Source: Oscillospiraceae bacterium (lineage in GTDB: Bacteria > Bacillota > Clostridia > Oscillospirales > Ruminococcaceae). From it: a stretch of 33,214 bases of DNA. The stretch is taken from positions 1 through 33,214 of the forward strand of contig JAGAPB010000035.1 of assembly GCA_017847995.1 (NCBI GenBank). The letters are read 5' to 3'. Shown here one piece after another: positions 5,994-14,324 of this stretch (the stretch's first letter is position 1; the number at the start of each line of letters is the position of its first letter). The notes below the pieces were generated by a model. It worked only from the letters and a program-made list of their open reading frames with translations. It was not told the origin of the DNA and did not search any database. The position numbers and the translations under genes are program-made.

Positions 5994-8144
5994 TCAGTTG
6001 GAATGGCGGGCAATGCACTGCAGAATATCTTCTTTGTTGCCCCGCAGTATGGTGCGGAGGCTGTTGGCATCCTTGAACATGCGGAACAACTGGGCAAGGG
6101 CGTTCAGGTGGGTCTTTTCATCCTTGGCGGAAAGCATCACGATGATGTTCACCGGGTCGTGTGCCTTATATCCAAAGTGAACAGGGGTGCTGAGCAGGCT
6201 CATGCTGATGCCAAGGCCGTTGGCGCCCTCTTCGGGCGCGGCGTGGGCAAGGGCGATGCCGGGCAGCATGACCATATATGGCCCAAACTGTTCCAGGTTG
6301 CGGATGATCGATTCTTTATAGCTGGGGGCGATCACACCCTGGCCTTCCAGCAGGGCGGCCGAAGCCCGGATGGCCTCGCGCCAGTCGTCGCTGCAGTTCA
6401 CGGTGTTGATGCGGTCGCGGGTAAGCAGGTCACACAGCGAAAGGTTTCCCTGAGGAGCAGGAGCCAGCGAAGCCGCCGGGGGACTGGTCATCAGCTCGTT
6501 GAGCAGCTCGTACTGCAGATGCAGGCGGTCGTTGACCACACAGTATTTTTCAATGATGGAAAGCAGGCGGTTGACCGTAAATACTTCCAGGTCGTAGTGC
6601 TCCTTGGGAACAAAGCGAAGCGAAAGAAATTCAGCGATTTTTTGCTGGTCCCGTTCGTCAAACATGGGGCTTACCTGGATGCAGTGGGTGTCGCCATCCA
6701 GGGGCAGAGGAACGGTGGTGATGATGTGGTCGATGCCGGTCTTATCCATGGCCATCGCCTTGCGTCCCGAAACGGTGCCCACCACCTCAACATTGAAGAG
6801 CTTTTCGATCTGGGCGGTGATCATCTGGGCCGAGCCGAGGCCGGTGCCGCAAACCAACAGGACACGGGCCTTGTTGGTGGTGCGCAGGTTGACCCGGTGC
6901 AGCGCTGCGCCGAAGTGGAGGGCGATGAAGGAGACCTCATGGTCGTTCATGGGGCAGCGGAGGTATTCCTCCAGATGGTGGCAGACGATGCGGGTGTTGA
7001 TAAACAGCGCGTTGTAGTTGGAAACGATCTCGCTGTAAAGGGGATTGTGGTTGTACATGCCGAACCGCAGGCGGTGGGCGGCCGGCTTTAGATGCAGGAA
7101 AATAGCCTGTTCGATCTCATTGTACTGGTCGCCGAAGTCCACGTCATAGATGCGGGAAATATCGGCGATCATTTTGCGGGTGACTTCCAGCAGGGGCTGG
7201 TCCTCCACCTTTGGGTCGACCGGAACATAGGGGCGCATCACCTTGGCGCCCAGCAGGCAGTAGGTAAAATACCGGACCTCATCCTCCGGCAGAAGCTGGT
7301 TGCCGGGTTCCAGTTCGTCCAAAACCAGGCGGGCGGCGGCATATTCTGAAGTCATGGGAATATAATCGGCATTGGGGTCGGAAAGGTTGAGGGGATAGCC
7401 CAGATAGCCGCGGCGGAAGATGATGGCCAGGCGAACCAGCAGTTCGGAAAAGCTGTCGTCGCTGAAGGGACGGTCCAGCAGCGTTTCCAGCCGCTTGACG
7501 GCACGGGCGCCGGCGGCAGCTACCTCCACCGGAAGAAGTTCTTTCACCAACAGCAGCTCGGCCTTGCCCTTCAGCTCAGCGCCGGTGGTGGCATAGTGCA
7601 GCAGATTGTTGGGGTTGACCGACTGCATGACGATTTGGGTGGCAAGCTGGCGGCGGGTAAATTCATCCCCTTCGCAAAAAAGGCCGACACGGGGTCTTTT
7701 TACCAAAACAAGATCGTGCTGCTTCAGCCATTCTTCGGTTCTTTCCAGGTCCTTGAACATGGTGTTGCGGCTGCGGTCCAGGCTGTGGCACAGATCCTCA
7801 ATGCGTACAGGCTGTACGGCAAGCAGCAGAATAAACCGCAGAAAGGCCTGGCGTTCTTCGGCCGAGTAGCTGTACTGAAAGGAACGCAGCTCGCCGGCAC
7901 AGCGGTCCACAAATTCATAAACCTCGGGGGAAGCGCTCAAACGAACGCCGCGGGTGCGTTCCCGCTCCAGATAGGGCAGCCCCCGTGAGACCATATATTG
8001 CTCGATTTTGTCCAGGTTGTAGCGGATGCCGCGAACCGAAAGGCCGTACTGGTCGGCCAGTTCCTCGATGGAAACATAGTCCTCTTTGGCACGGAGATAG
8101 GCCATAATATCCAAATGCTTTTTGTTCAGTTCCAAATCAGCCAT
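5994..8144 (-). CDS. PRD-containing transcriptional antiterminator/activator with IIB and IIA domains (MtlR/ManR type)
   Basis: A 716-residue regulator. Visible domains in order: N-terminal winged HTH (about 8-55, SIEELADQYGLSVRGIRYNL), second Mga-like HTH (about 95-165), PRD1 (about 205-300), PRD2 (about 310-420), a Gat-type IIB domain (VLLVCGTGLGSAQMI, about 430-515) and a mannitol/fructose-type IIA domain (about 570-716) with the phosphohistidine motif IALAHAAPEEG. Proteins of this design are DNA-binding activators of PTS operons, switched by HPr- and EII-dependent phosphorylation. PRD2 keeps histidines in HLKPAAHR and ALHFGAAL, but PRD1 has LLVRLAIIF and YFTYCLLGA where histidines are usually found. 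The gene diverges from the IIC gene across a 388-nt region. The ATG at 8144 has a GGAG ribosome site. Confidence 0.92.
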   Translation of the reverse strand: MADLELNKKHLDIMAYLRAKEDYVSIEELADQYGLSVRGIRYNLDKIEQYMVSRGLPYLERERTRGVRLSASPEVYEFVDRCAGELRSFQYSYSAEERQAFLRFILLLAVQPVRIEDLCHSLDRSRNTMFKDLERTEEWLKQHDLVLVKRPRVGLFCEGDEFTRRQLATQIVMQSVNPNNLLHYATTGAELKGKAELLLVKELLPVEVAAAGARAVKRLETLLDRPFSDDSFSELLVRLAIIFRRGYLGYPLNLSDPNADYIPMTSEYAAARLVLDELEPGNQLLPEDEVRYFTYCLLGAKVMRPYVPVDPKVEDQPLLEVTRKMIADISRIYDVDFGDQYNEIEQAIFLHLKPAAHRLRFGMYNHNPLYSEIVSNYNALFINTRIVCHHLEEYLRCPMNDHEVSFIALHFGAALHRVNLRTTNKARVLLVCGTGLGSAQMITAQIEKLFNVEVVGTVSGRKAMAMDKTGIDHIITTVPLPLDGDTHCIQVSPMFDERDQQKIAEFLSLRFVPKEHYDLEVFTVNRLLSIIEKYCVVNDRLHLQYELLNELMTSPPAASLAPAPQGNLSLCDLLTRDRINTVNCSDDWREAIRASAALLEGQGVIAPSYKESIIRNLEQFGPYMVMLPGIALAHAAPEEGANGLGISMSLLSTPVHFGYKAHDPVNIIVMLSAKDEKTHLNALAQLFRMFKDANSLRTILRGNKEDILQCIARHSN

Positions 8145-8532: not shown

Positions 8533-9933
8533 ATGGACCAAATCGTACAGAGCATTCTGGGGATTTTTTCTTCCATTCAAAATATGGGGGCAGTGTTGTT
8601 TGTTCCCATCGTTATCTTTCTTGTGGGTATCATCTTTGGGCTCAACTGGATGAAGTCTTCCCGTGCAGCCATAACGGTGGGCATCGGGTTCATCGGCGTT
8701 AATTTGGCGCTTACCCTGGTGTGGGACCAGCTTGGCCCCATCACCCATGCCATTGTGGAACGGTTTGGCCTGCGGTTGGAGGTGCTGGACACCAGTTGGA
8801 CCTCGGCCGCCGCGGTGGCCTTCACCGGCCAGGTGGGCGTTTTCATCATACCCTACGTTCTGCTCATCAATGTCATTATGATTTTTCTGCGTCTGACCAA
8901 GACCATGAACATCGACATCTGGAACTACTGGCATTTTGCTCTGACCGGCACCCTGGTCACTGTGATGAGCGATTCGACTTTTCTGGGCTTTTTGGCAACC
9001 GCCTGCCACGTGGTCATCGTGCTCCAGTTTGCCGATATCACCGCCCGGAATGTGCAGAAGGAACTGAACATCCCCGGCATTTCCATTCCCCATGCCAATT
9101 CGGTGGCGCTGGCTCCGCTCTATCTTTTCCTGGATAAGCTTTACGACAAAATTCCGTTTATGAAGCCCTCGGGCGAAAAGGCCGGCAACGAACACGGCGC
9201 CTTTTGGAAATGGATCTCCGATCCTGTTATTATGGGTTTCCTCATCGGCATTGTGTTTGGCCTGGTGGCCGATTGTCCCCCGCTGGAAACCGCCACCGTT
9301 GCCATGAGCATGGCTGCGCTGATGCTGCTTCTGCCCCGCATGGTCAAGGTCATCATGGAAGGGCTGCTGCCCATTTCCCAGTCGGTAAAAAAGTTTGCCA
9401 ATGAAAAAATGGGTCGGCGGGTCATCTACATCGGTTTGGATTCCGCCGTTATTTTGGGCCATCCCACCACCCTTACCGCTTCGATGATGCTGATCCCCAT
9501 CACCCTGGTGCTGGCCTTCCTTTTGCCCGGCAACCGCACCATTCCGGTGGGCGACCTGGTTGCCATCAATTTCTTTATTGCTGTAGCAACCGCGGTACAT
9601 AAGGGCAGCCTGCGCCGTACACTGGTCTCGGGTGCCATCACCACCTCGGTCATGCTGGTGGTGTGCAGCTATTTTGCCCCGGCGTTTACCCAGCTTGCCC
9701 GCCAAACCGGCGGCATGGTGCAAATGGCCGAAGGCGCTATCCTCATTTCGGCAATGGCGGTTGGGGACCTTGTGGCCTGGGTTTTGGAAAGACTTTCTTC
9801 CATCCCCGTGGCCGGTGCGCTGCTGATGGTTGCCGTTACCGCCTTGGTGGTAATGGTATGCCGCAGCCAGGACCGCAGCGCAAACGAAGAAAAAGAACCT
9901 ATAACCCCGGAACACTCCCCGGAAAGGGAATGA
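8533..9933 (+). CDS. PTS galactitol-family transporter subunit IIC
   Basis: A 466-residue polytopic membrane protein of the GatC family. It starts MDQIVQSILGIFSSI and has about ten to twelve hydrophobic segments spread over residues 12-450, with a conserved-looking PGISIPHAN loop near 178. GatC-type IIC proteins bind and translocate galactitol, pentitols or related sugars, which are phosphorylated during entry. A charged tail (from about 443) rich in E, P and R follows the last TM segment. The start has GAGGT 7 nt upstream. IIB follows after only 4 nt, so the two are co-translated. The substrate cannot be read from the sequence; the family name reflects similarity only. Confidence 0.88.
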   Translation: MDQIVQSILGIFSSIQNMGAVLFVPIVIFLVGIIFGLNWMKSSRAAITVGIGFIGVNLALTLVWDQLGPITHAIVERFGLRLEVLDTSWTSAAAVAFTGQVGVFIIPYVLLINVIMIFLRLTKTMNIDIWNYWHFALTGTLVTVMSDSTFLGFLATACHVVIVLQFADITARNVQKELNIPGISIPHANSVALAPLYLFLDKLYDKIPFMKPSGEKAGNEHGAFWKWISDPVIMGFLIGIVFGLVADCPPLETATVAMSMAALMLLLPRMVKVIMEGLLPISQSVKKFANEKMGRRVIYIGLDSAVILGHPTTLTASMMLIPITLVLAFLLPGNRTIPVGDLVAINFFIAVATAVHKGSLRRTLVSGAITTSVMLVVCSYFAPAFTQLARQTGGMVQMAEGAILISAMAVGDLVAWVLERLSSIPVAGALLMVAVTALVVMVCRSQDRSANEEKEPITPEHSPERE

Positions 9934-9937
9934 GAAT

Positions 9938-10222
9938 ATGGAAAAAACAATTTTGATCGTTTGCGGCACCGGAGTGGCCTCATCGGCAATTATGAACAAT
10001 GCGGTGCAGGATCTGCTGGAGCGCAACAAGCTGGATTCCAGAGTGATCCTGTGCCGGTACAGCCAGATGGAGCGCTATCTTTCCCAGGCCGACCTGATCA
10101 TCGCATCCCTGGACCTGCCGGAACGTCCCAAGCCCCCTGTTATTATGGGAACCGGCTTTTTGACAGGCGTTGGGGTGGATGAACTGGAAGAAAACATTCT
10201 CCGGCAGCTTAGCCCGGCCTAA
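9938..10222 (+). CDS. PTS galactitol-type subunit IIB
   Basis: A 94-residue cytosolic phosphocarrier. The N-terminus TILIVCGTGVASSAIM is the typical IIB phosphate loop with the active cysteine at residue 9. It directly follows the IIC gene (4-nt gap), which marks it as the transport partner. No IIA gene follows in this operon; the only IIA domain visible is the C-terminal one of the PRD regulator. Length is normal for free GatB-type subunits. The IIB at 5639 is the alternative partner for the same transporter. Confidence 0.9.
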   Translation: MEKTILIVCGTGVASSAIMNNAVQDLLERNKLDSRVILCRYSQMERYLSQADLIIASLDLPERPKPPVIMGTGFLTGVGVDELEENILRQLSPA

Positions 10223-10285: not shown

Positions 10286-11173
10286 ATGAAGTTTGAACTG
10301 GTAATCGACAGCGGCTGCGGCATTGCTGAAACTCCCATCTGGGATGACCGCAGTCAGACCCTGCTTTGGAACGACCTGTTCACCGGTGACGTGTATGAAT
10401 TTAACCCCGCCACCAAGGAACAGAAGATGTGGAAGACCAATGCCCTCATCGGTTCCTGCATCCCCTGCGAAGATCCCAACAAGATCTTTGTCATGATCGA
10501 AACCGGCGCCTATCTGCTGGATAAGACCACCGGCGAACTGGAATTCCTGGTGGACCCCGAAAACGGCAACGAAAAGAACCGCTATAACGACACCCGCATC
10601 GACGCCAAGGGCCGCATCTTCACCAGCTCGGTGGCCAAAACCTACGGCACCGACGACTACACCCCCGACCAGTTGGGCGCCTTCTACATGATCGACACCG
10701 ACCACAAGACCGTTAAGCTGGTCAAGGATGGCATCAACCAGTACAACTGCATCGTTTGGAACAAAGACAACACCAAGATGTTTGTTGTGGATACCTACAA
10801 CGAGACCCTGCTTTGCTGGAACTACGACCTGGAAACCGGCCCCGTTGGCGAACCTGAGATCGTCATCAACTTCAAGGGCGCTCAGGGCATGCCCGACGGC
10901 GTAAGCATCGACGAAGAAGACAACCTGTACGTTTGCCACTGGAGCCAGCAGATCAGCGTTTGGAACAAGGATTTCGAACTGGTAAAGACCATCGACTTCC
11001 CCGTACCCCAGATCGCCTGCGGCGGCTTTGGCGGCGCTGACCTGAAGGACTTCTACGTTGCTTCGGCTGCCTACTGCTACACCGAAGAAGACAAGAAAAA
11101 CAACCCCGGCGCCGGCGGCACCTTTGTTGCCAAAAATGACATCAAGGGCCGTATGGACTACTTCTTCAAATAA
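10286..11173 (+). CDS. SMP-30/gluconolactonase/LRE-like beta-propeller protein
   Basis: A 295-residue cytosolic protein without signal peptide. Motifs expected of the six-bladed SMP-30 propeller are present: IAETPIW near residue 13 (metal-binding glutamate), NRYNDTRIDAKGRIF near 97 (asparagine/aspartate), MPDGVSID near 209 (metal-binding aspartate), and CGGFGGADLKDFYVASA near 248. Family members are divalent-metal lactonases that open aldonolactones, or related hydrolases. The GGAGG site is well placed before the ATG at 10286. Its place after the PTS IIB (63-nt gap) suggests a step in catabolism of the imported compound or a related sugar acid; the exact lactone is unknown. Confidence 0.88.
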   Translation: MKFELVIDSGCGIAETPIWDDRSQTLLWNDLFTGDVYEFNPATKEQKMWKTNALIGSCIPCEDPNKIFVMIETGAYLLDKTTGELEFLVDPENGNEKNRYNDTRIDAKGRIFTSSVAKTYGTDDYTPDQLGAFYMIDTDHKTVKLVKDGINQYNCIVWNKDNTKMFVVDTYNETLLCWNYDLETGPVGEPEIVINFKGAQGMPDGVSIDEEDNLYVCHWSQQISVWNKDFELVKTIDFPVPQIACGGFGGADLKDFYVASAAYCYTEEDKKNNPGAGGTFVAKNDIKGRMDYFFK

Positions 11174-11190
11174 GAGAAAGAAGCTTTATT

Positions 11191-11403
11191 ATGCGTAAAG
11201 TGCAATGGATTCTTTGCCCTGTTTGCGGAGGAAAGACCCGAAACCAAATACGGGAAGACACAGTGCTGAAAAAGTTTCCGCTGTTTTGCCCCAAGTGTAA
11301 ACAGGAAACTTTAATTGACGCAGAAAAACTGAATATTATTGTTATAAAAGAGCCGGACGCACAGACGCAGAGCCTACAAATCGCGGGAAATCGCGAGGAG
11401 TAG
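11191..11403 (+). CDS. Cysteine-rich KTR family small zinc-ribbon-like protein
   Basis: A 70-residue protein with cysteine pairs at residues 9/12 (CPVC) and 33/36 (CPKC), as in a zinc ribbon. The KTR after the first pair and the stretch REDTVLKKFPLFCPKCKQET match what I recall of the cysteine-rich KTR family of Firmicutes, whose function is unknown. The gene is about 45% GC by hand count, against roughly 55-60% for neighbours, and uses A/T-ending codons, so it looks acquired. It has only a weak ribosome site. Its last dozen codons and stop form the left and right arms of a terminator hairpin (11369-11408). It stands between the lactonase and dehydrogenase genes, with no sign of a sugar-related role. 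Confidence 0.8.
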   Translation: MRKVQWILCPVCGGKTRNQIREDTVLKKFPLFCPKCKQETLIDAEKLNIIVIKEPDAQTQSLQIAGNREE

Positions 11404-11417
11404 GCTCTTTTCCTTTT
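11369..11417 (+). terminator. Branched terminator hairpin overlapping the 3' end of the KTR gene
   Basis: A perfect 9-bp stem joins 11369-11377 (AGAGCCTAC) with 11400-11408 (GTAGGCTCT). Inside it a second stem TCGCG (11381-11385)/CGCGA (11392-11396) closes a GGAAAT loop. TTTTCCTTTT follows. The KTR stop codon lies inside the right arm, so coding and terminator sequences are the same bases. Confidence 0.8.
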
Positions 11418-11439
11418 GTCGAAAAAAGACGAAAGGAAG
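11409..11439 (+). other. Second hairpin downstream of the KTR terminator
   Basis: TTCCTTTTGTC (11410-11420) pairs with GACGAAAGGAA (11428-11438) across 11 positions including one G-T, with a 7-nt A-rich loop. It uses the T-tract of the preceding terminator as its left arm, so the two structures may be alternatives. Role unknown. Confidence 0.5.
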
Positions 11440-11514
11440 CGGCACTTGTTCGGTTTCGCAAAATAAAAGTGGTTTGAACCAAATTTCATCAAAGAATAAA
11501 GGAGATTTGAAGCT

Positions 11515-12693
11515 ATGTTGAACGCATTTGAATTTGCACCCCCCAGAGTTATTTTTGGCGCAGGTATCGTTGCCAAGGTTGGCGAAGAAGCTGCCAAGTA
11601 CGGCAAAAAGGCCCTGGTTGTAACCTACGACGAAAAGTTTGTTAAGGAAGTTGGCTTCTACGATAAGGTAGCCAAGAGCTGTGCCGAAGCCGGCGTAGAT
11701 CTGATCTGGCACTTTGGCGTAAAGAGCAACCCCACCGTGGAACATGCCCGCATCGCCATCGAGATTATCAAGAAGGAAGCTGTTGACTGCATCATCGCCC
11801 TGGGCGGCGGTTCCGCCATGGACGAAGCCAAGTGCATCGGCATCGGTGCCCTGTACGACGGCGACGTTTGGGATTTCTTCTGCGGCAAGGCTGCCATGGA
11901 AAAGACCCTGCCCGTTATCACCGTTGTTACCATCCCCGCCACTTCTTCTGAAGTAAACGGCACCTCGGTTATGAACAACGAAGGCCTGCAGCGTAAGGAA
12001 GGCTGCGCCAACCCTGTTATGAAGCCTGCTCTGGCCGTTCTGGACCCCGAACTGACCTACTCCATCCCCGTACGCCAGACCGCTTACTCCGCAGCCGACA
12101 TCATCAGCCATCTGCTGGAACATTACCTGGGCCATGACGACGGCTTCTATCCCTACCAGGATCACTTCTCCGAAGGCGGCATCCGCTCCATCATGGACTG
12201 CATGAACCGCATTCTGGAAAATCCCACCGATCCCGAAGCCCGCGCCCTGATGATGTGGCAGGCCTCCTATGCCTGGAACGGCTTCTACGACAGCGGCTTT
12301 GCTCTGCCCAACTCCAACATCCACATCCTGGGCCACTCCCTGTCCAACTTCTATGACACCCCCCATGGCGCCGCCATGTCCATCACCATTCTGGCCACCC
12401 TGCGTTACTACCTGAAGGAACGCACCGCCCGCTATGCCCAGTTTGCCCGCGAAGTATTCAAGATCGACGAAGCTGACGACCTGAAGGCCGCCGAAGCCGG
12501 CATCGCCGCTCTGGAAGCCTGGTTCAAGAAGATCGGCACCCCCACCACCCTGGCCGAAGCCGGCATCACCGACGCCGACGCCATCGACAAGATGACTCCC
12601 GACGCATTCCAGACCGCTGCCAACTGGGGCGAAGTGGAAAAGTGGAACTACAGCGAGGATGTTATCCGCGCCCAGTTTGAACTGTGCAAGTAA
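11515..12693 (+). CDS. Iron-containing alcohol dehydrogenase (butanol dehydrogenase-like)
   Basis: A 392-residue group III alcohol dehydrogenase. The nucleotide-binding motif GGGSAMDEAK begins at about residue 97. The metal ligands are visible as D195 and H199 (DIISHLLEH), H274 (HILGHSLS) and H284 (YDTPHGAAM). The closest subtype by motif is the BDH/YqhD group, which reduces aldehydes with NAD(P)H or runs in reverse. AAAGGAG precedes the ATG at 11515. It follows the KTR terminator by about 100 nt and is 83 nt before the FGGY kinase. Its real substrate is open; in this setting oxidation or reduction of a sugar alcohol or short aldehyde is likely. Confidence 0.92.
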   Translation: MLNAFEFAPPRVIFGAGIVAKVGEEAAKYGKKALVVTYDEKFVKEVGFYDKVAKSCAEAGVDLIWHFGVKSNPTVEHARIAIEIIKKEAVDCIIALGGGSAMDEAKCIGIGALYDGDVWDFFCGKAAMEKTLPVITVVTIPATSSEVNGTSVMNNEGLQRKEGCANPVMKPALAVLDPELTYSIPVRQTAYSAADIISHLLEHYLGHDDGFYPYQDHFSEGGIRSIMDCMNRILENPTDPEARALMMWQASYAWNGFYDSGFALPNSNIHILGHSLSNFYDTPHGAAMSITILATLRYYLKERTARYAQFAREVFKIDEADDLKAAEAGIAALEAWFKKIGTPTTLAEAGITDADAIDKMTPDAFQTAANWGEVEKWNYSEDVIRAQFELCK

Positions 12694-12776: not shown

Positions 12777-14324
12777 ATGAGTTGTTTTTTGGGTATTGAC
12801 GCCGGCACCAGCGGCATTAAGGCCATCGTTCTGGAGGATACCGGCAACATCGTAGGCGTAGGCTACGCCGAATGTAACCTGATCACCCCCCGTCCCGCCT
12901 GGGTGGAAGAAAACCCCCTGGACTGGTGGGAAGCCTGTGACACCGCAGTAAAGCAGGCTGTTGCCAAATCCGGAAAGGGCATGGAGATCGTCGGCATCGG
13001 CTTCTCGGGCCAGATGCAGGGCAGCACCCTGATGGACAAGGACATGAACCCCATCGGCAACTGCATGATCTGGATGGACCAGCGTGCCGCCGACATCGCC
13101 GAGGAACTGAACAGCCGCATTTCGGCCGAAGAGGTTCTTTCCATCACCGGCAGCTTCTGCCTGCCCACCTACTGGGCCCCCAAGCTGCTGTGGCTCAAGC
13201 AGAACAAACCCGAAGATTACGAAAAGATCAAGGTCGTTCTGTTCACCAAGGACTATCTCCGCTACCGCATGACCGGCGAGGTCGCCACCGAAGTTTCCGA
13301 CTGCTCCTGCAGCTGGCTGATCGACATGAAGACCCGCAACTGGTCCGACCGCATGTTTGAAGTGACCGGCATTCCCCGCAGCATCGTTCCCGAACGGATG
13401 CTGGAAAGCACCGACGTGGCAGGCTACCTGCTGCCCGAGATCGCGGAAGCCTGGGGCATGAAGGCCGGCATCCCCGTAGCAGCAGGCGGCGGCGACCAGA
13501 CCGCAGGCGGCATCGGTTCCGGTGTTACCAAGCCCGGCATCATCGCAGCCACCATCGGCACCTCCGGTGTAGTATTCGGCTGCTGCGAAACTCCCTTCGC
13601 CGACCCCAAGCCCCGCGGCATGTTCTCGCTGTGCCACTCGGCTCCCGGCACCTACAGCTTCCTGGGCTGCACCCTGGGTGCAGGCGGCTCCTTCAAGTGG
13701 ATGCGTGACACCCTGTTTGCCGACAAGAAGGCTGCCCTGGCTGCCGAAGGCAAGGATGTTTACGACTATATGACCCAGTTGGCAGCCGCGGCCCCCGTTG
13801 GCTGCGAAGGCCTGGTATACCTGCCCTATATGAGCGGCGAAACCACCCCCCACGTTGACCCCGATGCCCGCGGCGTATTCTTTGGCATGAGCTACCGCAG
13901 CGACCTGGGCGCCCTGTGCCGTTCGGTAATGGAAGGCGTGACCTTCTCGCTGCGCGATACCATCGAAATTCTGCGTGAGACCAACGGCCTTGATGTTAAG
14001 GAAGTGCGCGCCATGGGCGGCGGCGCCAAGAGTGCCCTGTGGCGTCAGATCCAGGCAGATGTTTACAACGCGACCGTAGTGACCATGAACATGGAAGAAG
14101 GCCCCGCAGCCGGTGCTGCCATCATGGGTGCCGTTGCCGCCGGTTACTACAAGAGCGTACAGGAAGGCTGCGACGCCATTCTGAAGATCAAGACCGTGAC
14201 CGAACCCATTGCAGCCAATGTTGCAATGTACAACGACTACTACCAGACCTACCGCGAACTGTATCCTGCCCTCAAGCAGCTTTACAAGACCCAGGCAGGC
14301 CGGGTAGGCAAGTATCTCGACTAA
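12777..14324 (+). CDS. FGGY-family carbohydrate kinase (xylulokinase-like)
   Basis: A 515-residue sugar kinase. The first domain begins FLGIDAGTSGIKAIV (phosphate-binding loop), then FSGQMQG and IWMDQRA. The second domain starts near GGGDQTAGGIGSG with the likely catalytic base D240, then GTSGVVFG and GGGAKSALWRQIQAD (adenosine site). The pattern is closest to XylB-type ketose kinases, although the family also covers ribulo-, fuculo-, glycero- and erythritol kinases. The ATG at 12777 has AAGGAGG 9 nt upstream; the longer in-frame start at 12723 lacks this. It closes the carbohydrate gene set. A kinase for a free sugar is unexpected beside a PTS, since PTS sugars enter phosphorylated. Confidence 0.88.
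   Translation: MSCFLGIDAGTSGIKAIVLEDTGNIVGVGYAECNLITPRPAWVEENPLDWWEACDTAVKQAVAKSGKGMEIVGIGFSGQMQGSTLMDKDMNPIGNCMIWMDQRAADIAEELNSRISAEEVLSITGSFCLPTYWAPKLLWLKQNKPEDYEKIKVVLFTKDYLRYRMTGEVATEVSDCSCSWLIDMKTRNWSDRMFEVTGIPRSIVPERMLESTDVAGYLLPEIAEAWGMKAGIPVAAGGGDQTAGGIGSGVTKPGIIAATIGTSGVVFGCCETPFADPKPRGMFSLCHSAPGTYSFLGCTLGAGGSFKWMRDTLFADKKAALAAEGKDVYDYMTQLAAAAPVGCEGLVYLPYMSGETTPHVDPDARGVFFGMSYRSDLGALCRSVMEGVTFSLRDTIEILRETNGLDVKEVRAMGGGAKSALWRQIQADVYNATVVTMNMEEGPAAGAAIMGAVAAGYYKSVQEGCDAILKIKTVTEPIAANVAMYNDYYQTYRELYPALKQLYKTQAGRVGKYLD

Follow-up and report, generated by a model that had tools for sequence, protein, structure and literature searches.

A near-constant 26-nt core and a terminator-like hairpin at the 3' ends of KTR genes and unrelated accessory genes in Firmicutes

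The Oscillospiraceae contig JAGAPB010000035.1, of which the whole analysed stretch of 33,214 nt is called the window here, carries a small gene of deviating composition inside a sugar operon, and the last codons of this gene fold into a hairpin. This raises the question of what was acquired at the locus: a gene, a terminator, or something that the two have in common. An earlier note, made from the sequence alone, had proposed a mobile 'terminator with an ORF'. The locus is a hexitol-type PTS/sugar operon headed by a galactitol-type PTS EIIC-EIIB pair (8533-10222, + strand), from which a PRD/EIIA-type regulator (5994-8144, - strand) is divergently oriented. The following features surround the gene:

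10286..11173, + strand: SGL, SMP-30/gluconolactonase-like, the native upstream gene
about 11186..11470, + strand: insertion relative to the congener G002, ends uncertain by ~15 bp
11191..11403, + strand: KTR gene, encoding a 70 aa zinc-ribbon protein (PF14205)
11515..12693, + strand: ADH, iron-containing alcohol dehydrogenase, the native downstream gene, which directly follows SGL in G002 and G001
12777..14324, + strand: xylulokinase-type FGGY kinase, the next gene of the sugar operon

The KTR gene and its acquisition

The encoded protein clearly belongs to the Cys_rich_KTR family (PF14205), as the profile search gave 109.1 bits (cut-off 25.5) over residues 5-57 and the motif CPxC...KTR...CPKC is present. 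It is predicted to be a small all-beta zinc-ribbon-like protein, and pLDDT in the model falls below 50 at residues 58-60 and 62-64, which are the last codons under constraint (see below). A fold search returned nothing under E 0.001, with LysW as best match (E 0.45), and no significant RNA-binding-protein match; sequence and fold searches against the PDB found no significant relative, and a search of a defence-system library gave no match. In the searchable papers (subscription literature lay outside the search) no function is described for KTR, and only one of them names it, as an ORF of the Tn916-like Tn6822 (PMC9137128).

By its GC3 the gene is foreign at this locus (0.40 against 0.69-0.78 in the four neighbours SGL, ADH, xylulokinase and EIIC), and its overall GC content is likewise low, with 45.1% against 56.3% for the whole window. 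KTR starts 17 nt past the SGL stop. Both congeners compared, G002 and G001, lack KTR and carry SGL followed by ADH, with spacers of 65 bp and 30 bp, respectively, compared to 341 bp with KTR in the window. The ADH of G002 is 94% identical to that of the window, and although the G002 genome is 56% complete, its contig is continuous across the empty site. Relative to G002 the insertion measures ~285 bp and shows no target duplication. Within the family, KTR is scattered over 37 of 198 genomes from 32 genera. Because it is absent from both congeners and scattered in the family, KTR was evidently gained between SGL and ADH. The low GC content and the entry into a sugar locus that the earlier note had read from the sequence are thus both borne out, and empty sites do exist in close relatives.

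One conceivable vehicle is a MITE-like minute transposon, in which KTR and its hairpins would have been moved by a transposase acting on the ends. The size of the insertion would suit such an element, as would an imperfect inverted repeat of 14 nt (86%) near the estimated ends (11185-11198 / 11454-11467). However, this repeat is no better than chance repeats within the same 461 bp, no target was duplicated relative to G002, the window genome contains one KTR copy, the DNA past the hairpin is not common to other loci, and other copies do not have these ends. The unit therefore does not display the terminal inverted repeats, target duplication and several copies of MITE and IS elements, and we consider this origin very improbable.

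Hairpin, putative terminator and conserved core

To describe the end of the gene the following features are needed:

11349..11374, + strand: invariant core AGAGCCGGACGCACAGACGCAGAGCC, overlapping codons E54 to S61
11369..11408, + strand: terminator-like hairpin, with the final AGAGCC of the core as 5' arm
11407..11417, + strand: interrupted T-tract TTTTCCTTTTG, at and past the stem end, read from the sequence
11409..11439, + strand: second hairpin of 11-12 bp, 11409-11420 with 11428-11439

RNA folding of 11340-11450 gave an MFE of -48.2 kcal/mol, compared to -26.1 +/- 3.3 for shuffled sequences (z -6.75; 0/200 shuffles). The last codons and the stop indeed form the branched hairpin that the earlier note had described, with an outer stem of 9 bp (11369-11377 with 11400-11408) and an inner stem of 5 bp plus one G-U pair (11381-11386 with 11391-11396); the stop TAG (11401-11403) sits within the 3' arm. 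The T-tract, which had been placed directly after the stop, is present, but it begins after the 3' arm (11407 on) and is interrupted (TTTTCCTTTT). The second hairpin was also recovered by folding, its 5' arm containing the tract; its sequence was not found at other loci. The fold was also recovered as inverted repeats I1 and I5 in a repeat search of 461 bp, and a simple terminator scan misses the branched hairpin because of a loop limit of 8 nt.

In total, 201 such endings, here called tails, were collected, 158 of them with a full KTR gene upstream, 10 with a partial one and 33 with none, of which one or two (e.g., L149) match the short form of the search pattern by chance. Among 169 non-redundant tails, 145 have AGAGCC base-paired to an arm further downstream, 133 of these 145 together with a T-rich stretch, and at stem positions 7-13 several standard pair types occur. 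The hairpin is a family trait and, as it is kept across the family with compensatory changes, the window hairpin is far beyond chance. It combines the GC-rich stem and the T-rich tract of intrinsic terminators, the tract being interrupted in the window; stem, tract and conservation together strongly imply that transcription ends here.

Most relatives end their ORF with QSR* within the stem (CAGAGCCGATRA), as the codons CAG AGC CGA TGA/TAA place the stop inside the 5' arm. In the window, the corresponding stem bases have become TAC with a matching GTA, the usual stop is gone and the ORF runs through the loop to the TAG in the 3' arm; the stem was preserved at the cost of the usual stop. With its tail and hairpin the window copy resembles relatives beside tet(M), tet(O) and other accessory genes, whereas it differs from them in standing alone in a sugar operon, in its unique hairpin sequence and in the lost stop.

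The 5' arm is the end of a longer conserved element, a core of 26 nt with the consensus AGAGCC-R-GACGC-NNA-GACGC-AGAGCC. Across 70 non-redundant KTR genes, the choice among synonymous codons is free in codons 6-52 but not in the last nine (53-61), and the ratio of codon identity to expectation is 1.20 and 2.30, respectively; GAG (69/69), GAC (68/68), CAG (37/37), ACG (57/57) and AGC (61/61) are fixed. In addition, the core is kept behind premature stops (EPDA*TQSR* in L049, L087 and L098) and in another frame (EPDTLDAEPM in L030, L076 and L078, with a variant in L107). Because of this synonymous fixation and the persistence past stops and in shifted frames, the constraint acts on DNA or RNA and not on the protein. 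This also explains why the last codons look so constrained, in a part of the protein that is modelled with low confidence.

The core pattern matches 49 of 395 genomes of the order, a reversed control pattern none. Its spacer of 3 or 4 nt varies (ACA, AAA, ATA, TAA, CAA, TTAA), and one GACGCANN unit was lost in L033 and gained in L079. An account of the core or tail was not found in the searchable literature, subscription papers lying outside the search. A resemblance to group II intron domain V (GAGCCG start) was discarded for want of Rfam support; the Rfam search returned chance matches only (E 3.1 and 4.4).

Neither the ORF nor the hairpin is constant. Cores without KTR lie behind ABC transporter genes, a PspC-like gene (L160) and a Cfr/RlmN-like radical SAM gene (L163-L168). 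A terminator that differs strongly in sequence and does not involve AGAGCC comes after the core in L202 and L204, and the internal cores of L160 and L177 lack a 3' arm, with the next gene beginning at once. In L033 the core stands behind an oppositely oriented ORF. As tails occur without KTR, with other terminators or with none, ORF and hairpin are replaceable and the core is not. The notion of a 'terminator with an ORF' therefore has to be revised: the conserved part is core plus terminator, the ORF is optional (33/201 tails lack KTR), and the terminator sequence is not fixed. That a core strictly requires KTR in the same genome was also rejected, since four core-bearing genomes that are at least 96% complete (G108, G499, G239, G558) are devoid of KTR.

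These results bear on another explanation, in which KTR is an ordinary transferred gene, widespread and equipped with a normal terminator, that travels as a passenger of conjugative elements and stayed in the window operon after a chance recombination; a stop within the stem would be normal in Firmicutes, where RNA polymerase outruns ribosomes. The review PMC7858274, citing Johnson 2020, places B. subtilis terminators only a few nt past stop codons, so that a stop near or inside a terminator is ordinary for Firmicutes, and KTR adjoins orf9 in Tn916-type elements (PMC9137128). However, an ordinary gene leaves the synonymous invariance of the last nine codons unexplained, as well as the core after unrelated genes and terminators and the switches at the core reported below. 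This explanation is already disfavoured, and we regard it as improbable.

Alternatively, the KTR protein itself or a host factor may bind the core as a conserved RNA site where the transcript ends and thereby tune termination or stability of accessory mRNAs, recombination at tails being a by-product of the shared sequence. The core lies nearly always on the sense strand at the 3' end of a unit beside the terminator, and KTR is predicted to be a small all-beta zinc-ribbon-like protein. Both AGAGCC copies can pair with GGCTCTTTT (11346-11354 or 11369-11374 with 11403-11411), which would permit switching, and the variable spacer length is easier to accommodate for an RNA target. On the other side, the core is kept where the hairpin ignores AGAGCC (L202, L204) or is absent at internal joints (L160, L177), and in L033 behind the oppositely oriented ORF; the four genomes with cores but no KTR speak against KTR as the binding partner, and the fold search gave no significant RNA-binding-protein match. 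An RNA site is thus possible, yet we do not think it likely.

The 9-bp pairing AAAAGAGCC/GGCTCTTTT (11346-11354 with 11403-11411) would absorb the T-tract and preclude the terminator stem, and an equivalent is possible in most tails because the core holds AGAGCC twice. Proteins of the phage Mu Com type are small zinc-binding RNA regulators. KTR, equally small and Cys-rich, could bind nucleic acid as they do; the two are likened by description only, and the likeness serves as a lead.

Accessory units and their junctions

Upstream of KTR, 65 unrelated gene clusters were found, 53 of them within 75 nt and mostly at -20 to +40 nt. The capped genes encode ABC-2 permeases, MATE and MFS transporters, acetyltransferases, flavodoxins, regulators and hydrolases, and on plasmids and phages tails lie behind tet(M), tet(O) and a methyltransferase gene. 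Resistance and efflux units on conjugative elements are frequent among them. KTR adjoins tet(M), tet(O), Cfr/RlmN-like, Mef-like and lantibiotic-transporter genes in gut and pathogenic Firmicutes, and it has also spread to Campylobacter and to Pasteurellaceae plasmids. That unrelated accessory genes share the same ending with a near-constant core of 26 bases is undescribed in the searchable literature. Together with its own tail, the Cfr/RlmN-like radical SAM methyltransferase gene is shared as near-identical DNA by species of several genera (L163-L168 in G015, G163, G141, G170, G152 and G192; also L187), pointing to a recent spread. Six viral contigs (L248, L254, L255, L266, L272, L275) have a core without KTR (TATAGAGCCAGACGCTGAGACGCAGAGCCGTTTAA...GGGCTTT), followed by differing genes.

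In L202, L203, L204 and L206 successive complete units form arrays, each unit with a terminal tail; they include BlaR1-type, lantibiotic-type ABC and histidine kinase units, and a relaxase gene adjoins the L202 array. Orientation is identical in 38/38 neighbouring tail pairs, to which the collinear arrangement of genes in conjugative elements may have contributed. Spacer sharing within arrays was not significant (11/33 pairs against 7.0 expected, p 0.07), and spacer homogenisation was therefore rejected as proof of exchange.

Tails also mark sites where neighbouring DNA changes. In 13 clusters, 200-400 bp of downstream DNA agree at 85-100% identity, whereas the upstream side is unrelated or holds a KTR gene of less than 75% identity, and 9 clusters show the reverse. 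The switch point lies within the core at base resolution for L172/L215, two L025 copies, L015/L048 and L035/L037, and probably for L072/L205 and L006/L105; several other switches lie outside it, where KTR begins or where the hairpin ends. Breakpoints close to the start of KTR were dropped as proof of site-specific insertion, being due for the most part to operon packing and lost homology. A filled and empty pair is given by L064 and L035/L036/L057, which are collinear for 4.2 kb upstream and several hundred bp downstream; behind the first tail L064 has an extra unit of 1.7 kb with TetR, a phosphorylase-family protein, KTR and a tail.

Plasmid pB1006 (L116) carries a tet(O)-KTR unit that is circularly permuted compared to the Campylobacter and phage copies. 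The opening lies within the core spacer (GACGCTTAA^GACGC), and the unit meets the end of a mobilisation gene at the target TATAA, which shares only TAA with it; another Pasteurella plasmid is the counterpart without the unit. This circle is a single event, and each of its two joints shows 3-bp microhomology. Split cores are very rare overall, and in Tn916-type plasmids and E. coli all cores were intact or absent.

These events would fit a site-specific gene-cassette system in Clostridia and other Firmicutes, in which units recombine at the core and the half-sites GAGCCRGACGC and GACGCAGAGCC flank a variable overlap of 3-4 nt that ends in A. By integron-like logic, a putative recombinase would add circular one-core units to resident cores and so build the arrays, in which resistance and efflux operons lie on one strand; the KTR protein might act as an accessory factor. 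The fixed core with its variable spacer, the single orientation of arrays, the exchange at the core and the pB1006 circle, opened exactly in the spacer, argue for it. However, no recombinase or transposase tied to the core was identified, the integron integrase (IntI, TIGR02249) stayed below cut-off in all 10 genomes tested, the half-sites are direct and not inverted, and next to the very rare split cores there is one clear circle event. Such a system seems rather unlikely to us.

Breakpoints at shared sequence are also expected from plain homologous recombination. This general process explains arrays and exchanges but not 26 nt that stay fixed amid divergence, which a dedicated recombinase or an RNA-binding partner would explain.

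A probable mobile 3' tail and its relation to known systems

The explanation that we favour, and consider probable on sequence comparison, is a mobile 3' tail that terminates transcription and acts as recombination junction between accessory units. It would consist of the usual but optional KTR ORF, the 26-nt core and an intrinsic terminator, for which the final AGAGCC of the core normally supplies the 5' arm. Such tails would cap accessory transcription units, many of them resistance or efflux operons, and end their transcripts on conjugative elements, plasmids and phages of Firmicutes. Recombination at core or terminator would set new units in tandem and in one orientation, or alternatively swap the upstream or downstream DNA. 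In the window, a lone tail of ~285 bp would have entered the vertically inherited sugar operon between SGL and ADH; at this position a part of the operon transcripts would be expected to end before ADH and xylulokinase, unless polymerase reads through. Of the mobility suggested by the earlier note, the part that stands is movement deduced from recombination junctions; self-movement is not indicated, with no transposase and one copy in the genome. Of the two findings that the note had named as speaking against it, KTR genes elsewhere without the hairpin and vertical inheritance at this locus with typical composition, neither was obtained: the hairpin is present in nearly all family members, the congener sites are empty and the composition is foreign.

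Like integron cassettes (attC), tails are one-orientation accessory units that end in a conserved site plus hairpin and are joined at this site (38/38 pairs on the same strand, switches at the core). In difference to them, the attC boxes RYYYAAC and GTTRRRY are both missing from the core AGAGCCRGACGCNNAGACGCAGAGCC, as read from alignments, the tail hairpin is replaceable, the core repeats are direct and not inverted, and an integron integrase is not above cut-off in the 10 genomes tested. With intrinsic (Rho-independent) terminators of Firmicutes that overlap stops, tails share the GC-rich stem, the T-tract and the stem over the ORF end; they add the 26-nt core, which is fixed, begins before the stem and reaches into it, and is common to unrelated genes. 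Found at exact unit joints, the core provides a searchable marker for the assembly of accessory and resistance operons outside integrons, and offers a direct test for a second cassette-like system.

A possible second lone tail lies in L108 (G131), in a sugar operon with the order dehydratase-KTR-permease; the congener G014 differs altogether downstream and gives no clean empty site. IS-like DNA breaks the core or hairpin in L021 (~4178), L028 (~4178), L036 (~6818) and L187 (~1556), and the base at which it enters is identical in L021 and L028 (GACGCAGA^TGACCG). Matches to pemK RNA (RF02913) lie near the tail loci L160 (6996-7096) and L163 (5484-5564). In many tails (e.g., L009, L011, L069) a second hairpin with an A-rich loop (e.g., GCCCACCGAATAAAAAAAACGGTGCTTTGGTGGGC) recurs 20-40 nt past the first.
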